The notes under the pieces: generated by a model
The model's database searches: none
What the model saw: only the letters and a program-made list of their open reading frames with translations
What the model was told of the DNA's origin: nothing
Made by a program: the position numbers and the translations under genes
Virus record (IMG/VR): IMGVR_UViG_3300031521_000027
Coordinates: 40,214-104,213 of that record
DNA: 64,000 nt
Direction: 5' to 3' (one strand)
DNA from: a virus
Part shown: positions 2,590 through 62,896 of the stretch, one piece after another
How the letters are laid out: every line of letters starts with the position of its first letter
How positions within the stretch are numbered: the first letter of the stretch is position 1

Positions 2590-3444
2590 ATGGCAGGTAA
2601 CTACCCGAACGCGCCGTCATGGCGCATGGGATACGACACGGACGGCACTCAGGGCTACCGCGTCGTGCGCGGGGTGGTCACACCCCTCAGCGGGACCGAC
2701 TTGGTGAACCTGAACAACGAGGCCACCGGGGATGCCGTCTTGACTGCCTTCGGCATGTTCGATTACGGGGAGGTCGTCCTCATCTTCCCGGAGAAGCGGG
2801 ATCTCGACGCCTTCTTCGGTAAGGGCAGGACGGGAGGTCTCGGAGGAGGCACCGCCACGGTCACAACCTCAGTCGACTCCACCAATGGGGTGGATGGGAC
2901 ATGGACCACCGCAGGCACCTTCGCCATCGGAACGTTCAGCGACGGCAACGCCAAGGTGGCTCCGGACTACCGCGAAGCTGTCAGCACCACCAAGCTGGGC
3001 ATTCAAGCAGTGAAGTTCGCCGGAGCCTCCGCCCTGATGGCCATCCACATCTACGGAGAGATCACCGCAGGTCAGACGCTGGACCGCCTCCTCGTGTGGC
3101 ACCCCACCCTCGACGAGCGGGTCTCTCCCTCGTGGTTCGACTGGGGTGATGTGCCCCGCAACTCTTCGGACACCCGGCAGTTCCGGATCAAGAACATGTC
3201 CCCCACCAAGACGGCGACCAACGTCCGGGTGGCCATGGAGGTGCTGACCAACCAGAGCCCGTCGGTACCGGGCCAGCACGCCCTGTCCCTCAACGGAGGG
3301 TCCTACACGGCGCAGCAGACGATCTCCACGCTGGCCCCCGGCGCAGTCTCTGGCATCCTCACCCTCCGGAGGCTCACCCCCGCCAATGCCCAGCTGGGTG
3401 CCGGATCCTTCCGGGTGTTCTCGGAGGCCCAGTCATGGGCCTGA
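2590..3444 (+). CDS. Minor tail protein, tandem paralogue 2 of 3
   Basis: 284 residues, ATG 6 nt after the previous stop. It repeats the block order of its upstream neighbour (MAGNYPNAPSWRMGYDTDG, FPEKRDLDAFF, HIYGEITAGQTLDRLLVWHP, ERVSPSWFDWGDVPR, LTLRRLTPANAQL). The first half diverges more than the second and carries a Gly-rich insertion near residue 78. Such local triplication suggests related subunits in one structure, or alternative receptor contacts. No enzymatic motif is visible. Confidence 0.8.
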   Translation: MAGNYPNAPSWRMGYDTDGTQGYRVVRGVVTPLSGTDLVNLNNEATGDAVLTAFGMFDYGEVVLIFPEKRDLDAFFGKGRTGGLGGGTATVTTSVDSTNGVDGTWTTAGTFAIGTFSDGNAKVAPDYREAVSTTKLGIQAVKFAGASALMAIHIYGEITAGQTLDRLLVWHPTLDERVSPSWFDWGDVPRNSSDTRQFRIKNMSPTKTATNVRVAMEVLTNQSPSVPGQHALSLNGGSYTAQQTISTLAPGAVSGILTLRRLTPANAQLGAGSFRVFSEAQSWA

Positions 3445-3456
3445 CAGGAGACGGCT

Positions 3457-4260
3457 ATGGCCGGTAACTACCCCGATGCCACCTCGTGGCGGATGGCCAT
3501 CGACAAGGACGGCACACAGGTCTACCGGTTGTCCGGCGACACCCTCTCGCAGCTGTCCGCAGCCGATCTGGTGAACCTGAACAACGAGACCGTGCAGACG
3601 GCTGTGTCCGGAGGCGACGAGCTGATCGTCATCTTCCCGCAGAAGCGTGACCTCGACGGCTACTTCCTGCGGTCCTCAGGAGGCGTGATCGGGGTGAAGA
3701 CCTCGGTCGACTCCACCAATGGGGTGGACGGCACGTGGGTCACTGGAGTGTCCACCGCTGGCGGCGGCTCCACCATCAGCCCGGACTACCGCGCATACTC
3801 CAGCACCACCAAGCTGGGCATCAAGGCTGTGAAGTTCACAGCTCCCGGGAGCCTCACCGCACTTCACCTGTACGGAGAGAACACGGTGGGTCAGAGCCTT
3901 GACCAGTTGATCCTGTGGAGCGCCTTCGGAGACGAGCGGGTCTCCCCCTCCAACTTCGACTGGGGCAACGTCCCGAGGTCCTCGACCGATGACCGCTACT
4001 TCCGGGTGAAGAACACCTCCACCCTGCTGACGGCGCGCAACGTCGTGGTGGCCATGGAGTCCCCGACAGACTCCACTCCGTCGGCCCAGCTGGAGCACAT
4101 CATCGCGAAGGACACCCTGTTCCTTGCCCAGCAGACCATCGGAGCCATCGGACCCGGAGCCATCTCCGGGGTCCTCACCCTCCGGAGGATCACCCCATCC
4201 AACGCACAGCTGGGACTGCACACGTTCCGCCTGTATGCCGAAGCAGAGTCTTGGAGCTGA
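3457..4260 (+). CDS. Minor tail protein, tandem paralogue 3 of 3
   Basis: 267 residues, ATG behind AGGAGACGGCT. The shortest of the three paralogues: it lacks part of the central loop but keeps MAGNYPDATSWRM, FPQKRDLDGYF, TTKLGIKAVKF, LHLYGENTVGQSLDQL and the C-terminal LTLRRITPSNAQLGLHTFRLYAEAESW. It is followed by the next tail gene after only 3 nt, so the set is one transcription unit. The role in the virion is inferred from position. Confidence 0.8.
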   Translation: MAGNYPDATSWRMAIDKDGTQVYRLSGDTLSQLSAADLVNLNNETVQTAVSGGDELIVIFPQKRDLDGYFLRSSGGVIGVKTSVDSTNGVDGTWVTGVSTAGGGSTISPDYRAYSSTTKLGIKAVKFTAPGSLTALHLYGENTVGQSLDQLILWSAFGDERVSPSNFDWGNVPRSSTDDRYFRVKNTSTLLTARNVVVAMESPTDSTPSAQLEHIIAKDTLFLAQQTIGAIGPGAISGVLTLRRITPSNAQLGLHTFRLYAEAESWS

Positions 4261-4263
4261 CCG

Positions 4264-4674
4264 ATGTCCACTGTGAACGCCCGCAACATCTCGCTCCGCT
4301 CCCACTTCGGGGCAGACAAGAGCGCCGTCGCCCTGCCCACCCTGTACTTCGCCCTCTTCAACGGCGACCCCGAAGGAGCCGGTGTCGAGCCGACCTCCAC
4401 AGGTGGGTACGCCCGCAAGGCCGTGACCAACGACATCGCCCTCTGGGGCACCATCGGTGGGTCGGCGGTCTCGGTGACCAACGCCACCGACATCGTCTTC
4501 GCCACGGCCACAGGGGTCTACTCGCAGGCCAGCCTGACCCACTGGGCAGCCTTCGACAACTCAGCAGGAGGAGTCCTGACATATGCAGGACCCCTGACCG
4601 CCACCGTCGCCGTGAGCGGTGCAGGGGATGTCCCCCGCATCGTCGCCGGGGGCCTGACCATCACCCAGCAGTAG
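4264..4674 (+). CDS. Small tail protein
   Basis: 136 residues. It starts MSTVNARNISLRSHFGADK and contains LPTLYFALFNGDPEGAGVE and THWAAFDNSAGGVLTYAGPL. This compact beta protein type is frequent between minor tail genes of actinophages and often carries a phrase like LYFALFNGDP. No signal peptide or transmembrane segment. Likely structural, attached to the distal tail or fibre. The family resemblance is from memory of pattern and is not verified. Confidence 0.7.
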   Translation: MSTVNARNISLRSHFGADKSAVALPTLYFALFNGDPEGAGVEPTSTGGYARKAVTNDIALWGTIGGSAVSVTNATDIVFATATGVYSQASLTHWAAFDNSAGGVLTYAGPLTATVAVSGAGDVPRIVAGGLTITQQ

Positions 4675-4684
4675 GAGTCGGACC

Positions 4685-5599
4685 ATGGCCTTCTTGGACA
4701 CCGGAGGAACCGGAGCGCTACGCAAGCTCACTGGCGTAGCGACTGTTGCCGTGTCCGCGTGGGCCGTCTCCCAGATCGAGCCATCCGATACCACCACCAG
4801 CCCGACCACCACGGTCACCCTGAAGGTGCTGGTCTCCTCCTCCGACGCCAGCAACACCGACGTGCAGATTCAGGTGGCGACAGAGAACACCTTCTCCTCC
4901 CCCGTGGTGGATGTGACCCTCACCAACAAGCCGGACGGCTTCGTGACGGCGCTGGCGTCCGGTCTGGTCAACCTGACCAACTACTACTGGCGAGCCCGAG
5001 CTGCCCAGACCGGCACCACCGCGTGGACTGTGTGGAGCCCGATCTGGTCCTTCGGCATCAACACAGTGGTCGGAGCTGCCTGCTCCTACGTGTACTCCAA
5101 CTTCGGCATCGACCCGGCCATGGTCGGCTCAGACGCTGAGTACGTTTTCCAGAACTTCGGCATCGAGCAGGTCCACGAGGATGTCGCACAGGAGTACGTC
5201 AACTACAACCATGGCGTGGAGGTCACCCGCAGGTCGGTCGCGGTCGAGTACGTCCACGAGGGAGACGTCAACACAGGCACCCCTGACCCCCGGATCTGGT
5301 TCGTCACTCCCGACAACGGCAGGGCGGGGGACGGCATCCGAATCTTCGGCTTCGGCTTTGGCGATCTTCAGAGTCAGTACGCCGGATCGCTGGAGTGGAG
5401 GAATGGTGTGGAGTGGGATCCGCTCAGCGTCACGTCGTGGCAGACCTTCCCCCCGACCGTGAACGCCTACACAGCCGCCCGGCAGATGGACATGCTCTCG
5501 GGTGAGATGGACATGCAGCACACCGTGATCGAAGTCCAGATCCCCGTCGAGGCTGTCCCCCCGGGCGTCTCCTTCCGCTTGGTTACGGACGGCTCCTGA
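4685..5599 (+). CDS. Minor tail protein with FN3-like and IPT/TIG-like parts
   Basis: 304 residues, ATG behind AGGAGTCGGACC. Residues ~30-130 read as a fibronectin III-like module (TTTVTLKVLVSSSD, YYWRARAAQTGTTAWTVWS). The middle has short repeats (YVYSNFGID, YVFQNFGIE, EYVNYNHGVE, EYVHEGD). From residue ~205, PRIWFVTPDNGRAGDGIRIFGFGFG resembles an IPT/TIG start. Its stop overlaps the ATG of the large fibre-like gene. Likely a tail-tip connector; the function is inferred. Confidence 0.7.
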   Translation: MAFLDTGGTGALRKLTGVATVAVSAWAVSQIEPSDTTTSPTTTVTLKVLVSSSDASNTDVQIQVATENTFSSPVVDVTLTNKPDGFVTALASGLVNLTNYYWRARAAQTGTTAWTVWSPIWSFGINTVVGAACSYVYSNFGIDPAMVGSDAEYVFQNFGIEQVHEDVAQEYVNYNHGVEVTRRSVAVEYVHEGDVNTGTPDPRIWFVTPDNGRAGDGIRIFGFGFGDLQSQYAGSLEWRNGVEWDPLSVTSWQTFPPTVNAYTAARQMDMLSGEMDMQHTVIEVQIPVEAVPPGVSFRLVTDGS

Positions 5600-32679: not shown

Positions 32680-33144
32680 ATGGCACATCCTGCAACCCTC
32701 AACATCGTCATGACCGTCGAGAACCCTCCGCTCTTTGCCGCTGAGATCGCCGACGCCGTCGCCGCCAAGCTCTCCCGCGCCGCCATCTGGGACGAGGTCC
32801 AGAAGACACTGGTGGAGTGGGTCGCGCTCTACGCCACGCACACCACCGCCCAGCCCGAGCTGAAGCTGCCCGAGGAGGTCACCGAGTTCCTTGAGGCCGA
32901 GCACGACACCGACGAGAAGCTGAAGGAAGCCGCCGACGTGCTCATCGTGCTGGCGTCCCAGCTGACCTTCGAGGGCTACACCATCGAGGACCTCGCCAAC
33001 GCCGTGCAGGAGAAGCTGCTGGTCAACCTCGCCCGGACGTGGCAGCTCAACGACACCGGCACCATCTCCCACGTCAAGGACGTTTCCGAAAACGATGAGT
33101 CCGGCGTGGTCAGCGACATCGACATCCTGCTGGACGAACTCTGA
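32680..33144 (+). CDS. MazG-like nucleotide pyrophosphohydrolase
   Basis: 154 residues. KLPEEVTEFLEAEHDTDEKL followed by KEAADVLIVLASQL supplies the EE-xx-E...E-xx-D metal site of the all-alpha NTP-PPase fold. It probably hydrolyses (d)NTPs or alarmone-type nucleotides. The tail is acidic and carries a GTTTCCGAAAAC palindrome in codons for Val-Ser-Glu-Asn. First gene of an operon whose second member is a NADAR protein, under GGCGTACCAGT copy 5. Confidence 0.8.
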   Translation: MAHPATLNIVMTVENPPLFAAEIADAVAAKLSRAAIWDEVQKTLVEWVALYATHTTAQPELKLPEEVTEFLEAEHDTDEKLKEAADVLIVLASQLTFEGYTIEDLANAVQEKLLVNLARTWQLNDTGTISHVKDVSENDESGVVSDIDILLDEL

Positions 33145-33632
33145 TGGCTAGCTTCACCGAGTCTGGGTTCCGGGGTGACTACTTCTTCCTGTCGAACTTC
33201 TACGAGCAGCCCCTGTGGATAGGCAGGCTGGGCATGATGGCTCCCACAGGGGAGCACGCCTACAACGCCCTGAAGACGGTCGATACGGCCACCCGTGAGG
33301 CCATCCTGAAGGCAACGACCCCGGGGCAGGCCAAGGGGCTGGGCCGGAAGGCACCCCTGCGGGAGGGCTGGGAAGCAGGTGGCCGTGTGGCAGCCATGTC
33401 CATGGTCATCTCGGCCAAGTTCAGCCTCCCCTTCCGCCCCATCCTGCCCAACCTCGCGGCCATGCTCATCGACACGGACAGCACCATGCTGATCGAGATC
33501 AACGACTGGCACGACAACTTCTGGGGGAGCTGCCTGTGCACCCGGCGCACCTGTGGCGGCAAGGGCATCAACATGCTGGGCGAGCTGCTCATGGCCCGGC
33601 GCACCATCCTCCAGCACCCGAAGGACTTCTGA
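33144..33632 (+). CDS. NADAR (YbiA/DUF1768) family protein
   Basis: 162 residues, ATG overlapping the MazG-like stop. YFFLSNFYEQPLWIG, APTGEHAYNALKTVD, KGLGRKAPLREGWE, then WHDNFWGSCLC and GKGINMLGELLMARR are the ordered NADAR motifs. Characterised NADARs cleave ADP-ribose linkages, including ADP-ribosylated guanine made by DarT-type toxins; others act in riboflavin metabolism. In a phage this could undo host ADP-ribosylation defences (inference). Transcribed with MazG and a chain of small genes to 34589. Confidence 0.88.
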   Translation: MASFTESGFRGDYFFLSNFYEQPLWIGRLGMMAPTGEHAYNALKTVDTATREAILKATTPGQAKGLGRKAPLREGWEAGGRVAAMSMVISAKFSLPFRPILPNLAAMLIDTDSTMLIEINDWHDNFWGSCLCTRRTCGGKGINMLGELLMARRTILQHPKDF

Positions 33633-43106: not shown

Positions 43107-44192
43107 ATGGCAGCAACCATCCACCGCCTCCGGGTCCGCAACTTCCAGAGCCTGCACGACATCGAGCTGGAGCTTCTCCCGTTCACCGTGATCGTCGGGC
43201 CCTCCTCCTCGGGCAAGTCGGCACTCACCCGGGCCCTGCGCACCCTCGTGTCCAACAGGCGGGGTACCGAGTGGATCACCCACGGGGAGCGGACGGCATC
43301 CATCACCGCAGAGACCGACGCAGGCACGGTCACACTCACCCGCAGCCGCTCCTCCGCATCGTCGGACAACGCGTACACCCTGACGCCCGCAGACAACCCG
43401 GAAGCCCAGCGGACCTACGCCAAGCTCGGTGGCGACACCCCGGAGGACGTTTCGAGATTCCTCGGCATCAACTCCGGCACCACGGCCACCCCGCCGATCA
43501 ACTTCGCAGGCCAGTTCGACAAGCCGTTCCTCCTCGCCGACTCCACCGCCGACGTCGCCCGCACACTGGGGGCCCTCACGAACGTCAACATCATCTTCGA
43601 GGGAGCCCGGGAGTCCAACAGGCAGAAGCTGGCCAACGCGGTCACCCTGCGCACCAGAGCAGCAGACCTTGAAGCGGTCAAGGCACGGGTCCCCGAGTTC
43701 CGAGCCCTGAAGGCACAGGACGTGGCCCTCACCGCAGCCGAGCAGATCATCGAGCACGCCCGCCAGCTGGAGCGCCAGATCGCCCGGCTCTCACAGGCAC
43801 TGGACATCGTCACCGTGATCGAGCCGTCCCTGCCACGCCTCCAGCGCCTCGCAGACATCGTGGTCCCTGACGAAACATCGATCCTCCGGGCCCAGAGCGC
43901 CCTCTCCAGCTTCCAGCAGGCTCTCACCCGGATACCGACCCTCGCCCGAGCCCAGCAGGCCGCACAGCAGGCGTACGACGTCATCGACACACAGGAGGCC
44001 AAGCTCCTCGCCGACTATGCCGAGTTCACCGGGGAGATCACCGACTCCCTGCACGGGTGGATCGGGGGCATGACCCTGAGGGGGGACACCCGGATCGAGT
44101 TCTCCGAGACCGGCATCGAGGTCGAGTGGATTCAGACCGACGTGGCCGTGAGTCTCTTCCTGAAGTATCTCGAAACGAAGGCCAGTTCGTGA
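43107..44192 (+). CDS. SbcC/RecF-like half ATPase
   Basis: 361 residues. IHRLRVRNFQSLHDIELELL and GPSSSGKSALTRALRTLVSN are the N-terminal strands and Walker A of SMC-type repair ATPases. FAGQFDKPFLLADS resembles the Q-loop region. A helical coiled-coil part follows. No LSGG signature or Walker B is visible, so the C-terminal ATPase lobe is missing or very diverged. An SbcD/Mre11-like nuclease at 57485 shares the same GGCGTACCAGT element, suggesting a functional pair. Confidence 0.75.
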   Translation: MAATIHRLRVRNFQSLHDIELELLPFTVIVGPSSSGKSALTRALRTLVSNRRGTEWITHGERTASITAETDAGTVTLTRSRSSASSDNAYTLTPADNPEAQRTYAKLGGDTPEDVSRFLGINSGTTATPPINFAGQFDKPFLLADSTADVARTLGALTNVNIIFEGARESNRQKLANAVTLRTRAADLEAVKARVPEFRALKAQDVALTAAEQIIEHARQLERQIARLSQALDIVTVIEPSLPRLQRLADIVVPDETSILRAQSALSSFQQALTRIPTLARAQQAAQQAYDVIDTQEAKLLADYAEFTGEITDSLHGWIGGMTLRGDTRIEFSETGIEVEWIQTDVAVSLFLKYLETKASS

Positions 44193-51032: not shown

Positions 51033-51087
51033 AACAGTTGACAGGAGAGCTGCTGTGTCCTAAGCTAGAGACATGAACACAGCAGCT
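51024..51087 (+). promoter_or_regulatory. Palindrome plus leaderless promoter inside an 11-bp inverted repeat
   Basis: ATTTCCTGAAAC (51024-51035), TTGACA (51038-51043), 17 bp, TAAGCT (51061-51066), AGAGAC, ATG 51073. AGCTGCTGTGT (51048-51058) is the exact complement of ACACAGCAGCT (51077-51087), so the arms enclose the -10 box and start codon. Confidence 0.8.
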
Positions 51088-51285
51088 TCCCTGAACTACA
51101 CACTCAACCCCGAGTGCATCAAGGTCGACCGCTTCATGGGCCTGAACATCGTGTTCGTACCCGCAGGCATGGTCTACCGGGTCACCGACGTCAACGGGAT
51201 CAGTTACTTCGAGTCCACCCCTGACCGGCTCATCGCCTTGATGAAGCAGCACGGGCGCAAGCACCTCAAGAGGAAGGCACGTTAG
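51073..51285 (+). CDS. Hypothetical protein (70 aa), predicted leaderless
   Basis: MNTAASLNYTLNPECIKVDR, FMGLNIVFVPAGMVYRVTDV, ending in a basic KQHGRKHLKRKAR. The first codons form the right arm of the promoter inverted repeat. The basic tail suggests nucleic acid or membrane contact. Unknown. Confidence 0.74.
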   Translation: MNTAASLNYTLNPECIKVDRFMGLNIVFVPAGMVYRVTDVNGISYFESTPDRLIALMKQHGRKHLKRKAR

Positions 51286-51831: not shown

Positions 51832-51879
51832 AACGAACGCTTGCCTTAACCGCTCTAGTGCAAACGAACGCTTGCCTTA
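51832..51879 (+). repeat. Direct repeat upstream of the deacetylase-like gene
   Basis: AACGAACGCTTGCCTTA at 51832-51848 and again at 51863-51879, exact, 31 bp apart (about three helical turns). It lies ~25 bp upstream of the promoter of the 51972 gene and was not seen elsewhere. Probably an activator or repressor site. Confidence 0.65.
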
Positions 51880-51895
51880 TTCACCTGTCCTCAAC

Positions 51896-51924
51896 TTGTG
51901 TCAGTGTCCCAAGTCTGGTACAGT
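51896..51924 (+). promoter_or_regulatory. Promoter of the deacetylase-like gene
   Basis: TTGTGT, 17 bp, TACAGT, then a GAGGTC/GACCTC hairpin leader and TAGGAAG before ATG 51972. It lacks the AGAGACAT and palindrome features of neighbouring promoters. Confidence 0.6.
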
Positions 51925-51971
51925 AGAGCTATCGAGGTCGCAAGGACCTCTTCGCAGTAGGAAGTACCCGC

Positions 51972-53201
51972 ATGACCTCAATCATCATTGGCTACACCCC
52001 CAGCTACCTCGGCTGGAAGGGCAGCTACGCCTCCCCCCGCCGTGCCCACCTCGCCGTCGAGCACATCATCGCTCGCGCCGAAGAGGAGGGCGTGGACATC
52101 GAGATCATCGAGCCCACGTTCAACCGGATGCAGGTGGCCAAGGAGCTGTCCCGCGTGCACTCCAAGTCCTACGTGGCCAACGTGCTGCGCGGAGCCCATA
52201 AGGAGCACCCCGGCCAGCAGGGACAGATCGCAGCGCTCATGTTCGAGGGCACCCGCGTGCTCGTGGACAAGATCATCGCCGACGGCTTCATCCCGCAGGT
52301 GTACTTCAACCCGCAGGGTGCCAAGCACCACGCCGGGTACGACGACAGCTCGGGCTTCTGCGTGTTCAACGACATGGCCTACGCCGCCACGGTCTTCACT
52401 GACCGTGGCCTGAAGGTGGCCTACCTCGACTGGGACGTGCACCACGGCGACGGGGTGGAAGCGCTCACCCGCAACAACCCCAACGTGCTCACCGCGTCGA
52501 TCCACCAGTTCGGCATCTTCCCGGGCACTGGGCTGAAGAGCCAGTGGAAGAACAGCGTGTTCAACTTCCCCATGGCAGCTGGAGACGGTGACGAGGAGTT
52601 TCTCGAAACTGTGGCCATCGCCCTTGAGGCCATCAAGGACTTCGAGCCGGACGTGTTCCTGCTCGCAGCAGGGGCTGACGGCCTCAACGAGGACCCGCTG
52701 GGCAGCCTGCGCTACACCCTCGACGGCATCGAGACCGCAGCCACCATGGTGGGCAAGCTCGCCAAGGAGCTGAACATCCCCGTGCTGATCGGCGGGGCGG
52801 GCGGCTACACCCCGTTCACGTTCACCCCGCTGGCATGGCACACCACTGTGTGGGCCATCCACGACGAGCTGAAGAAGGCTGTCAAGAGCATCGACGAGGA
52901 GGCGTTCGACTGGTCGGGCTCCCGCTACGACTGGGACCGCACGGATGGCCACAGCGAGGGCGAGAAGCCCGCTCTGGACGAGGCAATCGAGGAGGGCTAC
53001 AGCAACGACCGTGCAGCTCACATCGACGCCATCATGGACGGACTGGAGGGCATCCCCAGTGACTGCTGGGAGGACGTCCTCACCCGCGAGGAGTACGACC
53101 TCGTGGCATCCAAGATCGAGCCGATCATCCTCGCCGACGCACAGCGTGCAGCAGCCGAGGTCTCCAAGCCCCGGCGCAAGGGCAAGCGGGGTCGCCGCTG
53201 A
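51972..53201 (+). CDS. Histone deacetylase superfamily amidohydrolase
   Basis: 409 residues. The HDAC/AcuC/acetylpolyamine amidohydrolase core is complete: GAKHHAGYDDSSGFCVFNDM with the catalytic His pair (~118), VAYLDWDVHHGDGVEAL with Asp and His zinc ligands, IHQFGIFPGTG, LLAAGADGLNEDPLGSLRYT with the third ligand Asp, and IGGAGGYTPF with the transition-state Tyr. These enzymes remove acetyl from lysine, polyamines or small amides. A C-terminal ~90-residue extension ends in a basic KPRRKGKRGRR. The gene has its own promoter and flanking terminators. Substrate in a phage is unknown. Confidence 0.92.
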   Translation: MTSIIIGYTPSYLGWKGSYASPRRAHLAVEHIIARAEEEGVDIEIIEPTFNRMQVAKELSRVHSKSYVANVLRGAHKEHPGQQGQIAALMFEGTRVLVDKIIADGFIPQVYFNPQGAKHHAGYDDSSGFCVFNDMAYAATVFTDRGLKVAYLDWDVHHGDGVEALTRNNPNVLTASIHQFGIFPGTGLKSQWKNSVFNFPMAAGDGDEEFLETVAIALEAIKDFEPDVFLLAAGADGLNEDPLGSLRYTLDGIETAATMVGKLAKELNIPVLIGGAGGYTPFTFTPLAWHTTVWAIHDELKKAVKSIDEEAFDWSGSRYDWDRTDGHSEGEKPALDEAIEEGYSNDRAAHIDAIMDGLEGIPSDCWEDVLTREEYDLVASKIEPIILADAQRAAAEVSKPRRKGKRGRR

Positions 53202-53214
53202 TCAAGATTCTGAG

Positions 53215-53247
53215 GAGGACCGGGGGCAACCTCGGTCCTCTTTAGTT
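53215..53247 (+). terminator. Intrinsic terminator after the deacetylase-like gene
   Basis: GAGGACCG pairs with CGGTCCTC, then TTTAGTTTT. GATTCTGAG (53206-53214) lies between the stop codon and the stem. Confidence 0.75.
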
Positions 53248-57081: not shown

Positions 57082-57426
57082 ATGAGCACCATCACCGCAG
57101 AGCTGGTCGAGAAGAACGCCAAGATCCGCATCTACCCCTTCAACGACAGGGGCAGCTCTGAAGGCGTCGTCTTCAGCAAGGACGACCTCTGCGAGACCAT
57201 CGTCATCTGGTGCACCACCCTCGGCAACCCGGACGGCGTCCGCATCGAGTGCGACCCGTCCACCACGTTCGAGGTCATCGAGAAGGCACCCACGCAGATG
57301 ACCATGCCCGAGCTGGTGCGCGAGTTCGCATCCATCCGGGTCCAGATCGCCCTTGATCAGCCCCACTCCCTGCGCCGCCTGTGGCTCATCGTTGCTGAGC
57401 TGAAGAGCCGGGGTGCCCTTGACTGA
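57082..57426 (+). CDS. Hypothetical protein (114 aa), related to the 56206 gene
   Basis: ATG behind GGAAGGGCAATAGCC. MSTITAELVEKNAKIRIYPF, CETIVIWCTTLGNPDGVRIE, FEVIEKAPTQMTMPELVREF, then a helix pair. Similar to the 56206 protein in block order. Unknown role. Confidence 0.75.
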   Translation: MSTITAELVEKNAKIRIYPFNDRGSSEGVVFSKDDLCETIVIWCTTLGNPDGVRIECDPSTTFEVIEKAPTQMTMPELVREFASIRVQIALDQPHSLRRLWLIVAELKSRGALD

Positions 57427-57439
57427 GAGCCCAACAAAG

Positions 57440-57469
57440 AGCGCCCCTCGTGCGTACGGGGGGCGCTTC
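57440..57469 (+). terminator. Intrinsic terminator before the SbcD-like gene
   Basis: AGCGCCCC pairs with GGGGCGCT, then TCGG. GGCGTACCAGT copy 8 begins right behind it. Confidence 0.65.
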
Positions 57470-57484
57470 GGCGTACCAGTAGGT
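57470..57484 (+). promoter_or_regulatory. GGCGTACCAGT element, copy 8
   Basis: GGCGTACCAGTAGGT directly abuts ATG 57485 of the SbcD-like gene. Identical to copy 5 (MazG-like), one base from copy 6 (SbcC-like). Confidence 0.7.
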
Positions 57485-58480
57485 ATGACCATGACCGAGC
57501 CCAAGATCATCTGTGTGGGCGACCTGCACGTGTCCGACAAGGCACCTGTGAGCGCCACCGAGTCCTACACCGACGACATCCTCGTGATGCTGCGTTGGAT
57601 CGCCGACTATGCCGCCGCTGAGAAGGCGGATGCGGTCGTGCTGGCAGGGGACGTGTTCCATCACAAGGCCCCAAGCCGCAACAGCCACGAGCTGGTGCTG
57701 AAGATGATCGCTGTCGTGAAGTACTTCGAGGACAAGCAGGTGCGCCTGCTGTGCGTGACCGGCAACCATGACGTGATGAACGGCGTGATGGACAGCGTGC
57801 ATGAGCGCCAGCCACTGGGCGTGCTGTACGAGGCGGGCCTTGAAGAGCTGGTCGGCTGGGATGAAGGGGGCCTGCCCTTGTTCGGTGTCCCATGGCGCGA
57901 GTCGTGGACCGAGCCCGGCGACCCCGCCCTCGCACTGAAGGGGCTGGAAGATTCTGAGGGCCTGCCCCTGAGCAACGGCGTTCTGGTCGTGACGCACGCC
58001 CCGATCTACCCACCCTACGAAGCGCAGAAGCAGATGTTCGAGCTGGTGCAGCTGGAGGGCGAGGACGGGTTGAGTGCAGCCATGGGCAATCAGGGCCACC
58101 TGTACTACGGGCACATCCATGAGGACCACGGCGTCTTCGAGGTCGAGGGCGTGCAGTACGCCAACATGGGTGCCCTGAGCAGGGGGAGCCTGCACGAGTA
58201 CAACCTGAACCGCCAGATCAAGGTCGCTGTGTGGACCATCGAGGGCGGGTTCACTGAGGTGGTCGTGCCCCACAAGCCTGCCTCTGAGGCGTTCCGTCTT
58301 GCCGAGGTCATGGAGGAACGGGGCGAGCGGCTCTCTCTGGAGAGCTTCCTTGCAGCAGTGGGCAATCAGACCTTGGATGTCAGCAGTACGGGCAGCGTGA
58401 TTGACCACATCCGGGGGCGCGCAGACGTGAGCCCGGCAGTCAAGAAGCGCGCCATCACGATTCTGGAGGACGTGTCATGA
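57485..58480 (+). CDS. SbcD/Mre11-like metallophosphoesterase
   Basis: 331 residues; ATG 57491 is the alternative start. IICVGDLHVSD, VVLAGDVFHHK, LLCVTGNHDV, VVTHAPIYPP and LYYGHIHEDHG are the five phosphoesterase motifs in order. Mre11/SbcD nucleases open DNA ends and hairpins together with an SbcC/Rad50 ATPase; the SbcC-like half protein at 43107 is the candidate partner. It might process replication intermediates or concatemers. GATTCTGAG is in frame at 57950. Confidence 0.9.
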   Translation: MTMTEPKIICVGDLHVSDKAPVSATESYTDDILVMLRWIADYAAAEKADAVVLAGDVFHHKAPSRNSHELVLKMIAVVKYFEDKQVRLLCVTGNHDVMNGVMDSVHERQPLGVLYEAGLEELVGWDEGGLPLFGVPWRESWTEPGDPALALKGLEDSEGLPLSNGVLVVTHAPIYPPYEAQKQMFELVQLEGEDGLSAAMGNQGHLYYGHIHEDHGVFEVEGVQYANMGALSRGSLHEYNLNRQIKVAVWTIEGGFTEVVVPHKPASEAFRLAEVMEERGERLSLESFLAAVGNQTLDVSSTGSVIDHIRGRADVSPAVKKRAITILEDVS

Positions 58481-61854: not shown

Positions 61855-62153
61855 CTGCCCCCTACCTGAAGCTGGCCGAAGCTCCGACGCTGACGATCCG
61901 CAGCCCTGACTGCAACGAGTGCGCCGTGGAGGTCACCTCCGACGGTGACGGCTGGATGTGCCTTGTCTGTGGCACCCAGTGGGACTACGACGACGGGGAG
62001 GACACCCCGGGCACCTTGTACGAGGAGTGGTCCGGCGAGTCGCTGGAGGGCGTTCCTCTGCCTCCTGACGTGGCATGGCGCGTGGCCCTCATGCCGAACG
62101 CGTCCGAGCGTCAGGCCAAGGCCGAAGAACTGGTGAAGAAGGAGCTGTCATGA
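61851..62153 (+). CDS. Zinc-ribbon-like protein (100 aa)
   Basis: GTGA overlap. IRSPDCNECAVEVTSDGDGW, MCLVCGTQWDYDDGEDTPGT: CxxC...CxxC ribbon. The later half has a helical end (NASERQAKAEELVKKEL). Resembles small zinc proteins in other phages. Confidence 0.74.
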   Translation: MTAPYLKLAEAPTLTIRSPDCNECAVEVTSDGDGWMCLVCGTQWDYDDGEDTPGTLYEEWSGESLEGVPLPPDVAWRVALMPNASERQAKAEELVKKELS

Positions 62154-62896
62154 GCGAGCCGATCCTGACCACGCTGGCGGGCTCGCACGCCCACGGCATC
62201 AACACCGAGGCCTCCGACTTCGACTACGTGTCGGTGACCATGGCCCCGCTGGAGAGCACCCTCGGGATCGCCCCTGAGGTGAAGACCAAGATCGAGCGGG
62301 ACGCCCCTGACGGGACGCGCGCCGCTGCCGGGGACGTCGAGCACACCACCTACGAGCTGCGCCACTTCCTGAAGCTGGCCACGCAGGGCAACCCGAACAT
62401 CCTCGTGCCACTGTTCTGCGCGCCGGAGCACATCACCCACATCACCAGCGCCGGGATGGGTCTGCGGATGCTGGCCCCTGCGGTCGTGTCGATGCAGGCC
62501 GTCCACCGCCACCTTGGCTATCTGGACGCCCAGTACGGGCGGATGCGGGGGATAGGTCCCCATCAGTCGCGCAAGCCCAGCAGGCCCGAGCTGGTGGAGG
62601 CCCACGGGTACGACACCAAGTACGCCGCGCACGCCCTGAGGCTCGCGTGGCAGGGCATCGATCTGGCCTGTTTCGGGAAGATCGTGCTGCCGATGCGCCT
62701 GACCGAGCAGAAGACCCTGCTGGCGATCCGTGCAGGTCACTGGGAAGAGGCCAAGGTCTGTGAGGTCATTGAGCACAACCGGGACATCCTGCGCGACCAC
62801 GTCAACGGGGTCCTCACCTCCAAGCTGCCCGAGCACCCCGACTACGACGAGATCAACCGCTGGCTGATCCACATCCAGAGGGGACCGCTGAAGTGA
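62150..62896 (+). CDS. RlaP/YcgL-like nucleotidyltransferase (248 aa)
   Basis: ATGA overlap. TTLAGSHAHGINTEASDFDY followed by VSVTMAP carries the GS...SD-x-D core of the polymerase-beta nucleotidyltransferase fold. TYELRHFLKLATQGNPNILV and the helical C-terminal domain with GYDTKYAAHALRLA match the RlaP-type family (PF10127). These proteins occur in phages and in RNA-repair loci; the substrate is unknown, possibly RNA or nucleotide ligation intermediates. Confidence 0.82.
   Translation: MSEPILTTLAGSHAHGINTEASDFDYVSVTMAPLESTLGIAPEVKTKIERDAPDGTRAAAGDVEHTTYELRHFLKLATQGNPNILVPLFCAPEHITHITSAGMGLRMLAPAVVSMQAVHRHLGYLDAQYGRMRGIGPHQSRKPSRPELVEAHGYDTKYAAHALRLAWQGIDLACFGKIVLPMRLTEQKTLLAIRAGHWEEAKVCEVIEHNRDILRDHVNGVLTSKLPEHPDYDEINRWLIHIQRGPLK

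Follow-up and report, generated by a model that had tools for sequence, protein, structure and literature searches.

A predicted zinc deacylase of the histone deacetylase superfamily in tailed phages of actinobacteria and its putative association with ADP-ribose-processing genes

The window analyzed here, a stretch of 64,000 nucleotides (bases 40214-104213 of a 104,213-base virus record that may be incomplete), encodes an apparently intact and apparently active zinc-dependent deacylase of the histone deacetylase (HDAC) superfamily. The enzyme falls in a distinct clade known to date from tailed phages and actinobacterial chromosomes alone, and its gene neighborhoods lead us to propose, with confidence slightly short of even, that it works with ADP-ribose/phosphate processing in phage-host conflict. 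The family, the intact catalytic residues, the fold, the clade, and the gene linkage were computed, while we infer the activity, a substrate common to this enzyme, a phosphatase, and ADP-ribose hydrolases, and the role in conflict.

RESULTS

The phage and the region of the HDAC gene

In its terminase, portal, capsid, and tail genes, the record shares 61-77% identity with Microbacterium phage Magritte. This points to a tailed phage of an actinobacterium, whose host is probably a member of the Microbacteriaceae, and agrees with the preliminary description of the enzyme as phage-borne. The features discussed below are collected in Table 1.

Table 1. Positions in the window of the HDAC gene, its putative control elements, and the distant NADAR gene
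Feature	Positions	Strand	Remarks
17-bp direct repeat, copy 1	51832..51848	+	Exact; extends to 23 bp at 91%
17-bp direct repeat, copy 2	51863..51879	+	Exact
Probable promoter	51896..51924	+	Weak -35 TTGTGT (51896-51901); extended -10 TGGTACAGT (51916-51924)
Leader hairpin GAGGTC-GCAAG-GACCTC	51934..51950	+	Perfect 6-bp stem; between the -10 and the Shine-Dalgarno AGGAAG (51959-51964)
HDAC-superfamily zinc deacylase gene (predicted)	51972..53201	+	PF00850, AlphaFold2 core pLDDT, Foldseek; catalytic core, residues 1-302
Lineage-specific C-terminal extension, residues 303-409	52878..53198	+	Relatives shorter; GC coding pattern runs on
Terminator-like hairpin with T-rich tail	53222..53247	+	3' of the HDAC gene
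NADAR-domain protein gene (ADP-ribose processing)	33144..33632	+	PF08719, 59 bits; 18 kb from the HDAC gene, not adjacent

The HDAC region is flanked by the genes of an SbcC-like ATPase (43107-44192) and an SbcD/MRE11-like nuclease (57413-58480), 14 kb apart and both with homologues in Magritte. Farther along, the window holds an RlaP-family RNA-repair nucleotidyltransferase (62075-62896, +; PF10127, 77.7 bits), a possible conflict or RNA-repair gene. The 11-mer AAGATTCTGAG occurs 11 times in the window (44244, 44909, 45601, 46751, 48965, 51804, 53204, 54350, 57948 (+), 13794 (+), and 47649 (-)), mostly clustered within 44-58 kb on one strand, both between and inside coding regions. Furthermore, a perfect 11-bp inverted repeat (AGCTGCTGTGT/ACACAGCAGCT, 51048-51058 and 51077-51087), a likely operator, lies around the -10 of the ORF at 51073-51285.

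Intact catalytic site and deacetylase fold

The 409-aa product of the HDAC gene matched the Pfam profile PF00850 (Hist_deacetyl) with 174.6 bits (E 3.8e-51), against a curated cut-off of 27.9. Consistent with the preliminary description, the catalytic landmarks are complete: the His dyad H119/H120 (motif FNPQGAKHHA), D153, the zinc ligands D155 and H157, and D160 (LDWDVHHGDG), the third zinc ligand D236 (GADGLNEDPLG), and the catalytic Tyr Y279 (GGAGGY). These residues are invariant in the alignment of 20 phage relatives, down to 40% identity. The third-position GC content is 0.78-0.96 across all the 50-codon blocks of the ORF, including the C-terminal extension.

The AlphaFold2 model, built on a 26-sequence alignment, had a mean pLDDT of 85.5, with the core mostly above 90. 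The model has the arginase/deacetylase fold, and the PDB matches retrieved by Foldseek were the bacterial lysine deacylase 5zmp, Vibrio HdaH, HDAC8, and Leptospira HDAC11, with TM (target) values of 0.82-0.85 against bacterial lysine deacylase/HDAC11-type enzymes. No match to the protein was found in PHROG, no near DNA relative of the gene was present among phage records, and PADLOC had no model for the window HDAC, for the dual-specificity phosphatase (DSP) described below, or for the tested fusion of ADP-ribosylglycohydrolase (ARG) and DSP.

These results bear on the main rival explanation, a plain lysine deacylase: an AcuC-type enzyme of general protein-lysine specificity would reset host or phage protein acetylation, for example by re-activating acetyl-CoA synthetase or a host enzyme. 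AcuC and the bacterial classical lysine deacylases (PF00850) have in common with the window protein the fold, the zinc ligands, the His-His dyad, and the catalytic Tyr. The resemblance extends to the Leu gatekeeper (P242-L243-G244, PLG) and to the AcuC-like G-x-x-HHA motif with DPL, and the best fold match is itself a lysine deacylase. The phylogeny and the gene neighborhoods, presented below, argue the other way.

A second alternative is that the protein is an acetylpolyamine amidohydrolase (APAH) that, like those of giant viruses, would release polyamines for DNA condensation. Indeed, the only strong matches among predicted viral structures were giant-virus HDAC/APAH-type proteins, and the virus-borne relatives of Klosneuvirus, Tupanvirus, and Hyperionvirus, which belong to the same superfamily, have acetylpolyamine amidohydrolase activity (PMC9992855). 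This option, raised in the preliminary description, is disfavored because the gatekeeper is PLG, neither the PEG of HDAC10 nor the PIS of the bacterial acetylpolyamine deacetylases (cluster 4) (PMC11532494). The catalytic core of about 300 aa may also speak against it. So does a giant-virus survey that found APAH homologues only in Imitervirales and none in phages (PMC9992855), whereas the carriers considered here are tailed actinobacterial phages. We thus regard a polyamine substrate as improbable.

C-terminal extension

The 107-residue C-terminal extension was found only in the window protein, while 19 representative relatives stop at 305-348 aa. In the AlphaFold2 model, residues 316-345 have the lowest confidence, helices reach to about residue 398, and a basic tip covers residues 393-409. 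A basic tail had been reported for this protein: this is true of the tip only (net +7 in the last 17 residues), because the ~90 residues before it are acidic (net -17). Residues 303-409 had no match in Pfam or in phage records. The sole match retrieved, of 36% over ~59 residues inside a B-family DNA polymerase (L256), was judged a local resemblance.

A distinct clade shared by phages and actinobacteria

The nearest homologue among phage records is Magritte gp204 (OR553905; 54% identity over 324 aa), a 321-aa protein annotated as "hypothetical protein". It resembles the window HDAC in its solo context and leader hairpin, and differs from it in having neither the C-terminal extension nor the 17-bp repeat. 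The scan of viral contigs retrieved 94 relatives, and when bacterial and archaeal genomes were scanned, the FNPQGAKHHA signature also turned up in actinobacterial chromosomes, including those of the isolates Nocardioides sp. Root682 and Aurantimicrobium minutum. Its occurrence in chromosomes is sporadic (5/400 Microbacteriaceae genomes).

In an 80-sequence tree (a quick tree with SH-aLRT support only and midpoint root), 20 phage and 17 actinobacterial sequences came together as one clade of 37 members (support 100), which a long branch separates from the other HDACs sampled. The HDACs of the window, Magritte, and L002 grouped together with support 96. The clade excludes the Tsukamurella AcuC (one AcuC reference, itself on a long branch), and it further departs from AcuC in its FNPQGAKHHA and GGAGGY signatures and in being phage- or island-borne; this placement argues against a plain lysine deacylase.

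The phage label on the tree needs at least three changes, so that repeated transfer between phages and chromosomes is probable. Near the active site, the chromosomal copies and that of phage L018 have HAGDG and mostly no DPL, unlike most phage copies; phage and host enzymes may therefore differ in substrate, and a substrate should not be carried over from one to the other. L098 carries two tandem, diverged HDAC copies (2771-3772 and 3776-4750), the second without FNPQGAKHHA and GGAGGY.

Gene neighborhoods

A DSP gene adjoins the HDAC gene in 76/78 freshwater phage loci, corresponding to all of the 16 evaluable sequence groups; in the remaining two, the contig begins within the HDAC gene itself. 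Where the junction was inspected, the DSP gene overlaps the HDAC start. An HslV/proteasome-like peptidase gene (PF00227, phrog_1040) closely precedes the DSP-HDAC pair in the 16 groups of freshwater phages (e.g., L044 8850-9416 and L034 8827-9408); it was kept out of the module because it was not seen in the chromosomal loci examined.

Of the 14 chromosomal loci, 9 have a DSP homologue (40-52% identity with those of the phages) close to the HDAC gene, several times directly after it and thus in swapped order; some of the five loci without it are at contig ends. The other recurrent genes are vWA (7 loci), NrtR (6), ARPP (5), ARG (4, often fused to a phosphatase), HD (3), NT5C (2), and Macro (1), and TY-Chap3 is also present. 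The Aurantimicrobium gene has GmrSD/type IIG restriction genes on one side and a NERD helicase on the other. Other copies are near purine-synthesis housekeeping genes, which suggests that these are chromosomal islands and not prophages.

The composition of these islands matches the ARG-centric systems for which Iyer and colleagues, in section 3.8 of PMC9503650, predict a role in countering phage ADP-ribosylation: ARG, R-P/DSP, NrtR-Nudix, vWA, ARPP, TY-Chap3, Macro, HD, and NT5C are listed there. Unlike the chromosomal islands, the list in that section includes no HDAC. The phages do not carry the whole system and have the HDAC only, with or without DSP or a distant NADAR. The coupled R-P/DSP phosphatase was found in the 16 freshwater phage groups and in neither the window record nor Magritte. 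Indeed, DSP, Macro, ARG, and NUDIX families had no match in these two, of which Magritte is a complete genome and the window record perhaps not, and ARG was also absent from seven other HDAC phage records. Since neither phage has a DSP, the HDAC can dispense with this partner.

The window phage itself encodes a NADAR protein, coherently with an ADP-ribose theme; NADAR enzymes are described as reversing guanine ADP-ribosylation (PMC11125620, PMC11543638). NADAR was not found in Magritte or in six other HDAC phage records. The gene adjoins one similar to dATP/dGTP pyrophosphohydrolases (32680-33144).

The neighborhoods also weigh on the lysine deacylase alternative. No acetyltransferase and no AMP-forming/acyl-CoA synthetase gene was found in the chromosomal and phage neighborhoods examined, which hold DSP and ADP-ribose genes, in contrast to the acetyltransferase/AMP-forming synthetase context of the AcuC on a Tsukamurella plasmid. 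No positive evidence emerged for the reset of the host acetylome suggested in the preliminary description. Taking the motifs, the fold, the tree, and the context together, we consider general protein-lysine deacylation a serious possibility, to which we give about a third of our belief.

Transcription signals of the window gene

The HDAC gene is probably a stand-alone transcription unit with its own probable promoter, and the separate control proposed for it earlier is consistent with the signals found. The 16 promoters of the form TTGAC-(16-20)-TANNNT-GAGAC(AT) elsewhere in the 104-kb record (35072 to 59974 of the window, plus G000:C1:1609) have no counterpart at the HDAC gene, whose promoter does differ from those of its neighbors, as had been noted. 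At several of these 16 sites the ATG is only a few bases past the -10, suggesting leaderless messages. A simple consensus promoter scan made no call at the probable HDAC promoter, and relatives have a -10 TATACT at the place matching the extended -10 of the window.

The exact 17-bp direct repeat was found as first described, with copies 31 bp apart from start to start, about three helical turns. No other 17-mer of the window recurs exactly within 60 bp, 0.01 matches are expected by chance, and the window holds no third copy, even with up to three mismatches allowed. Among viral contigs, one single-copy match was retrieved (L255, upstream of an unrelated gene), which is at chance level for the size of the collection. 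The label of operator given to the repeat is unproven: no direct repeat of at least 10 bp is present in the 300 bases upstream of the HDAC genes of Magritte and L002, and what the three have in common is the leader hairpin. The position upstream of the probable promoter would suit an activator site more than a repressor operator, and the 31-bp spacing would suit an activator binding one helix face.

The leader hairpin is better conserved than the repeat. The genes of Magritte and L002 have a hairpin at the matching place with different stem letters, a covariation that is only suggestive because three sequences exist. No other gene in the window record has a hairpin between the -10 and the Shine-Dalgarno, and the reverse-strand control gave none.

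These signals are relevant to the possibility that the gene is a neutral passenger, or a catalytically dead homologue, without a role. Only three members are known in this phage lineage, and the gene sits, in both the window phage and Magritte, among mostly unshared small genes, as a passenger might. Against this, the catalytic residues are invariant in the diverse phages aligned, the codon bias is strong, and the gene has a predicted dedicated promoter and a conserved leader hairpin. A gene without function therefore seems to us very improbable.

DISCUSSION

The explanation that we tentatively prefer, the association with ADP-ribose/phosphate processing, would be as follows. A zinc deacylase of a distinct HDAC clade would be exchanged between actinobacteria and their tailed phages, with DSP as its usual partner and, in host chromosomes, with both genes in islands with ADP-ribose-processing genes. 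The enzyme would take an acyl (or acyl-like amide/ester) group off a substrate also acted on by the phosphatase and by ADP-ribose hydrolases, possibly a protein carrying a modification or an ADP-ribose-derived small molecule. During infection, a phage might thereby reverse a host conflict response or forestall it; the window phage would express the gene as a stand-alone unit, from a dedicated promoter preceded by a direct repeat, a possible activator site, and followed by a leader hairpin. Since the closest bacterial relatives and the phosphatase are in predicted anti-ADP-ribosylation islands, the role may be there and not in general protein acetylation. An acetylation-based defense had been suggested as the target: the area of conflict appears right, while the genomic context points to ADP-ribose/phosphate processing instead.

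Some points weigh against the preferred explanation. The window phage and Magritte have no DSP, nor do five of the 14 chromosomal loci show one, the NADAR gene is far from the HDAC gene, gene linkage gives no chemistry, so that a plain lysine deacylase could occupy such islands, and the ADP-ribose role of the host island systems is itself a prediction.

In a more specific form, which we consider rather unlikely, the HDAC-DSP pair or the HDAC alone would be a phage eraser, trimming or degrading an ADP-ribose-derived signal or modification of actinobacterial ARG/NrtR islands. If so, an HDAC fold acting on an ADP-ribose-linked substrate would be new chemistry for the fold and a new class of counter-defense.

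The enzyme family is known; the clade, its pairing with DSP, and the ADP-ribose context appear undescribed in the main texts of the openly licensed papers searched. Among these, the search for phage-encoded HDACs or lysine deacetylases returned a polysaccharide deacetylase paper only, and the freshwater actinophage papers had no mention of a phage HDAC. In the papers found, HDAC-fold enzymes are characterized in giant viruses and not in tailed phages. The clade is nonetheless recurrent in freshwater actinophage contigs, and its isolated member, Magritte gp204, is labeled hypothetical. The strict pairing with a phosphatase in phages and the chromosomal home in predicted anti-ADP-ribosylation islands would offer a testable link between two unconnected enzyme worlds.
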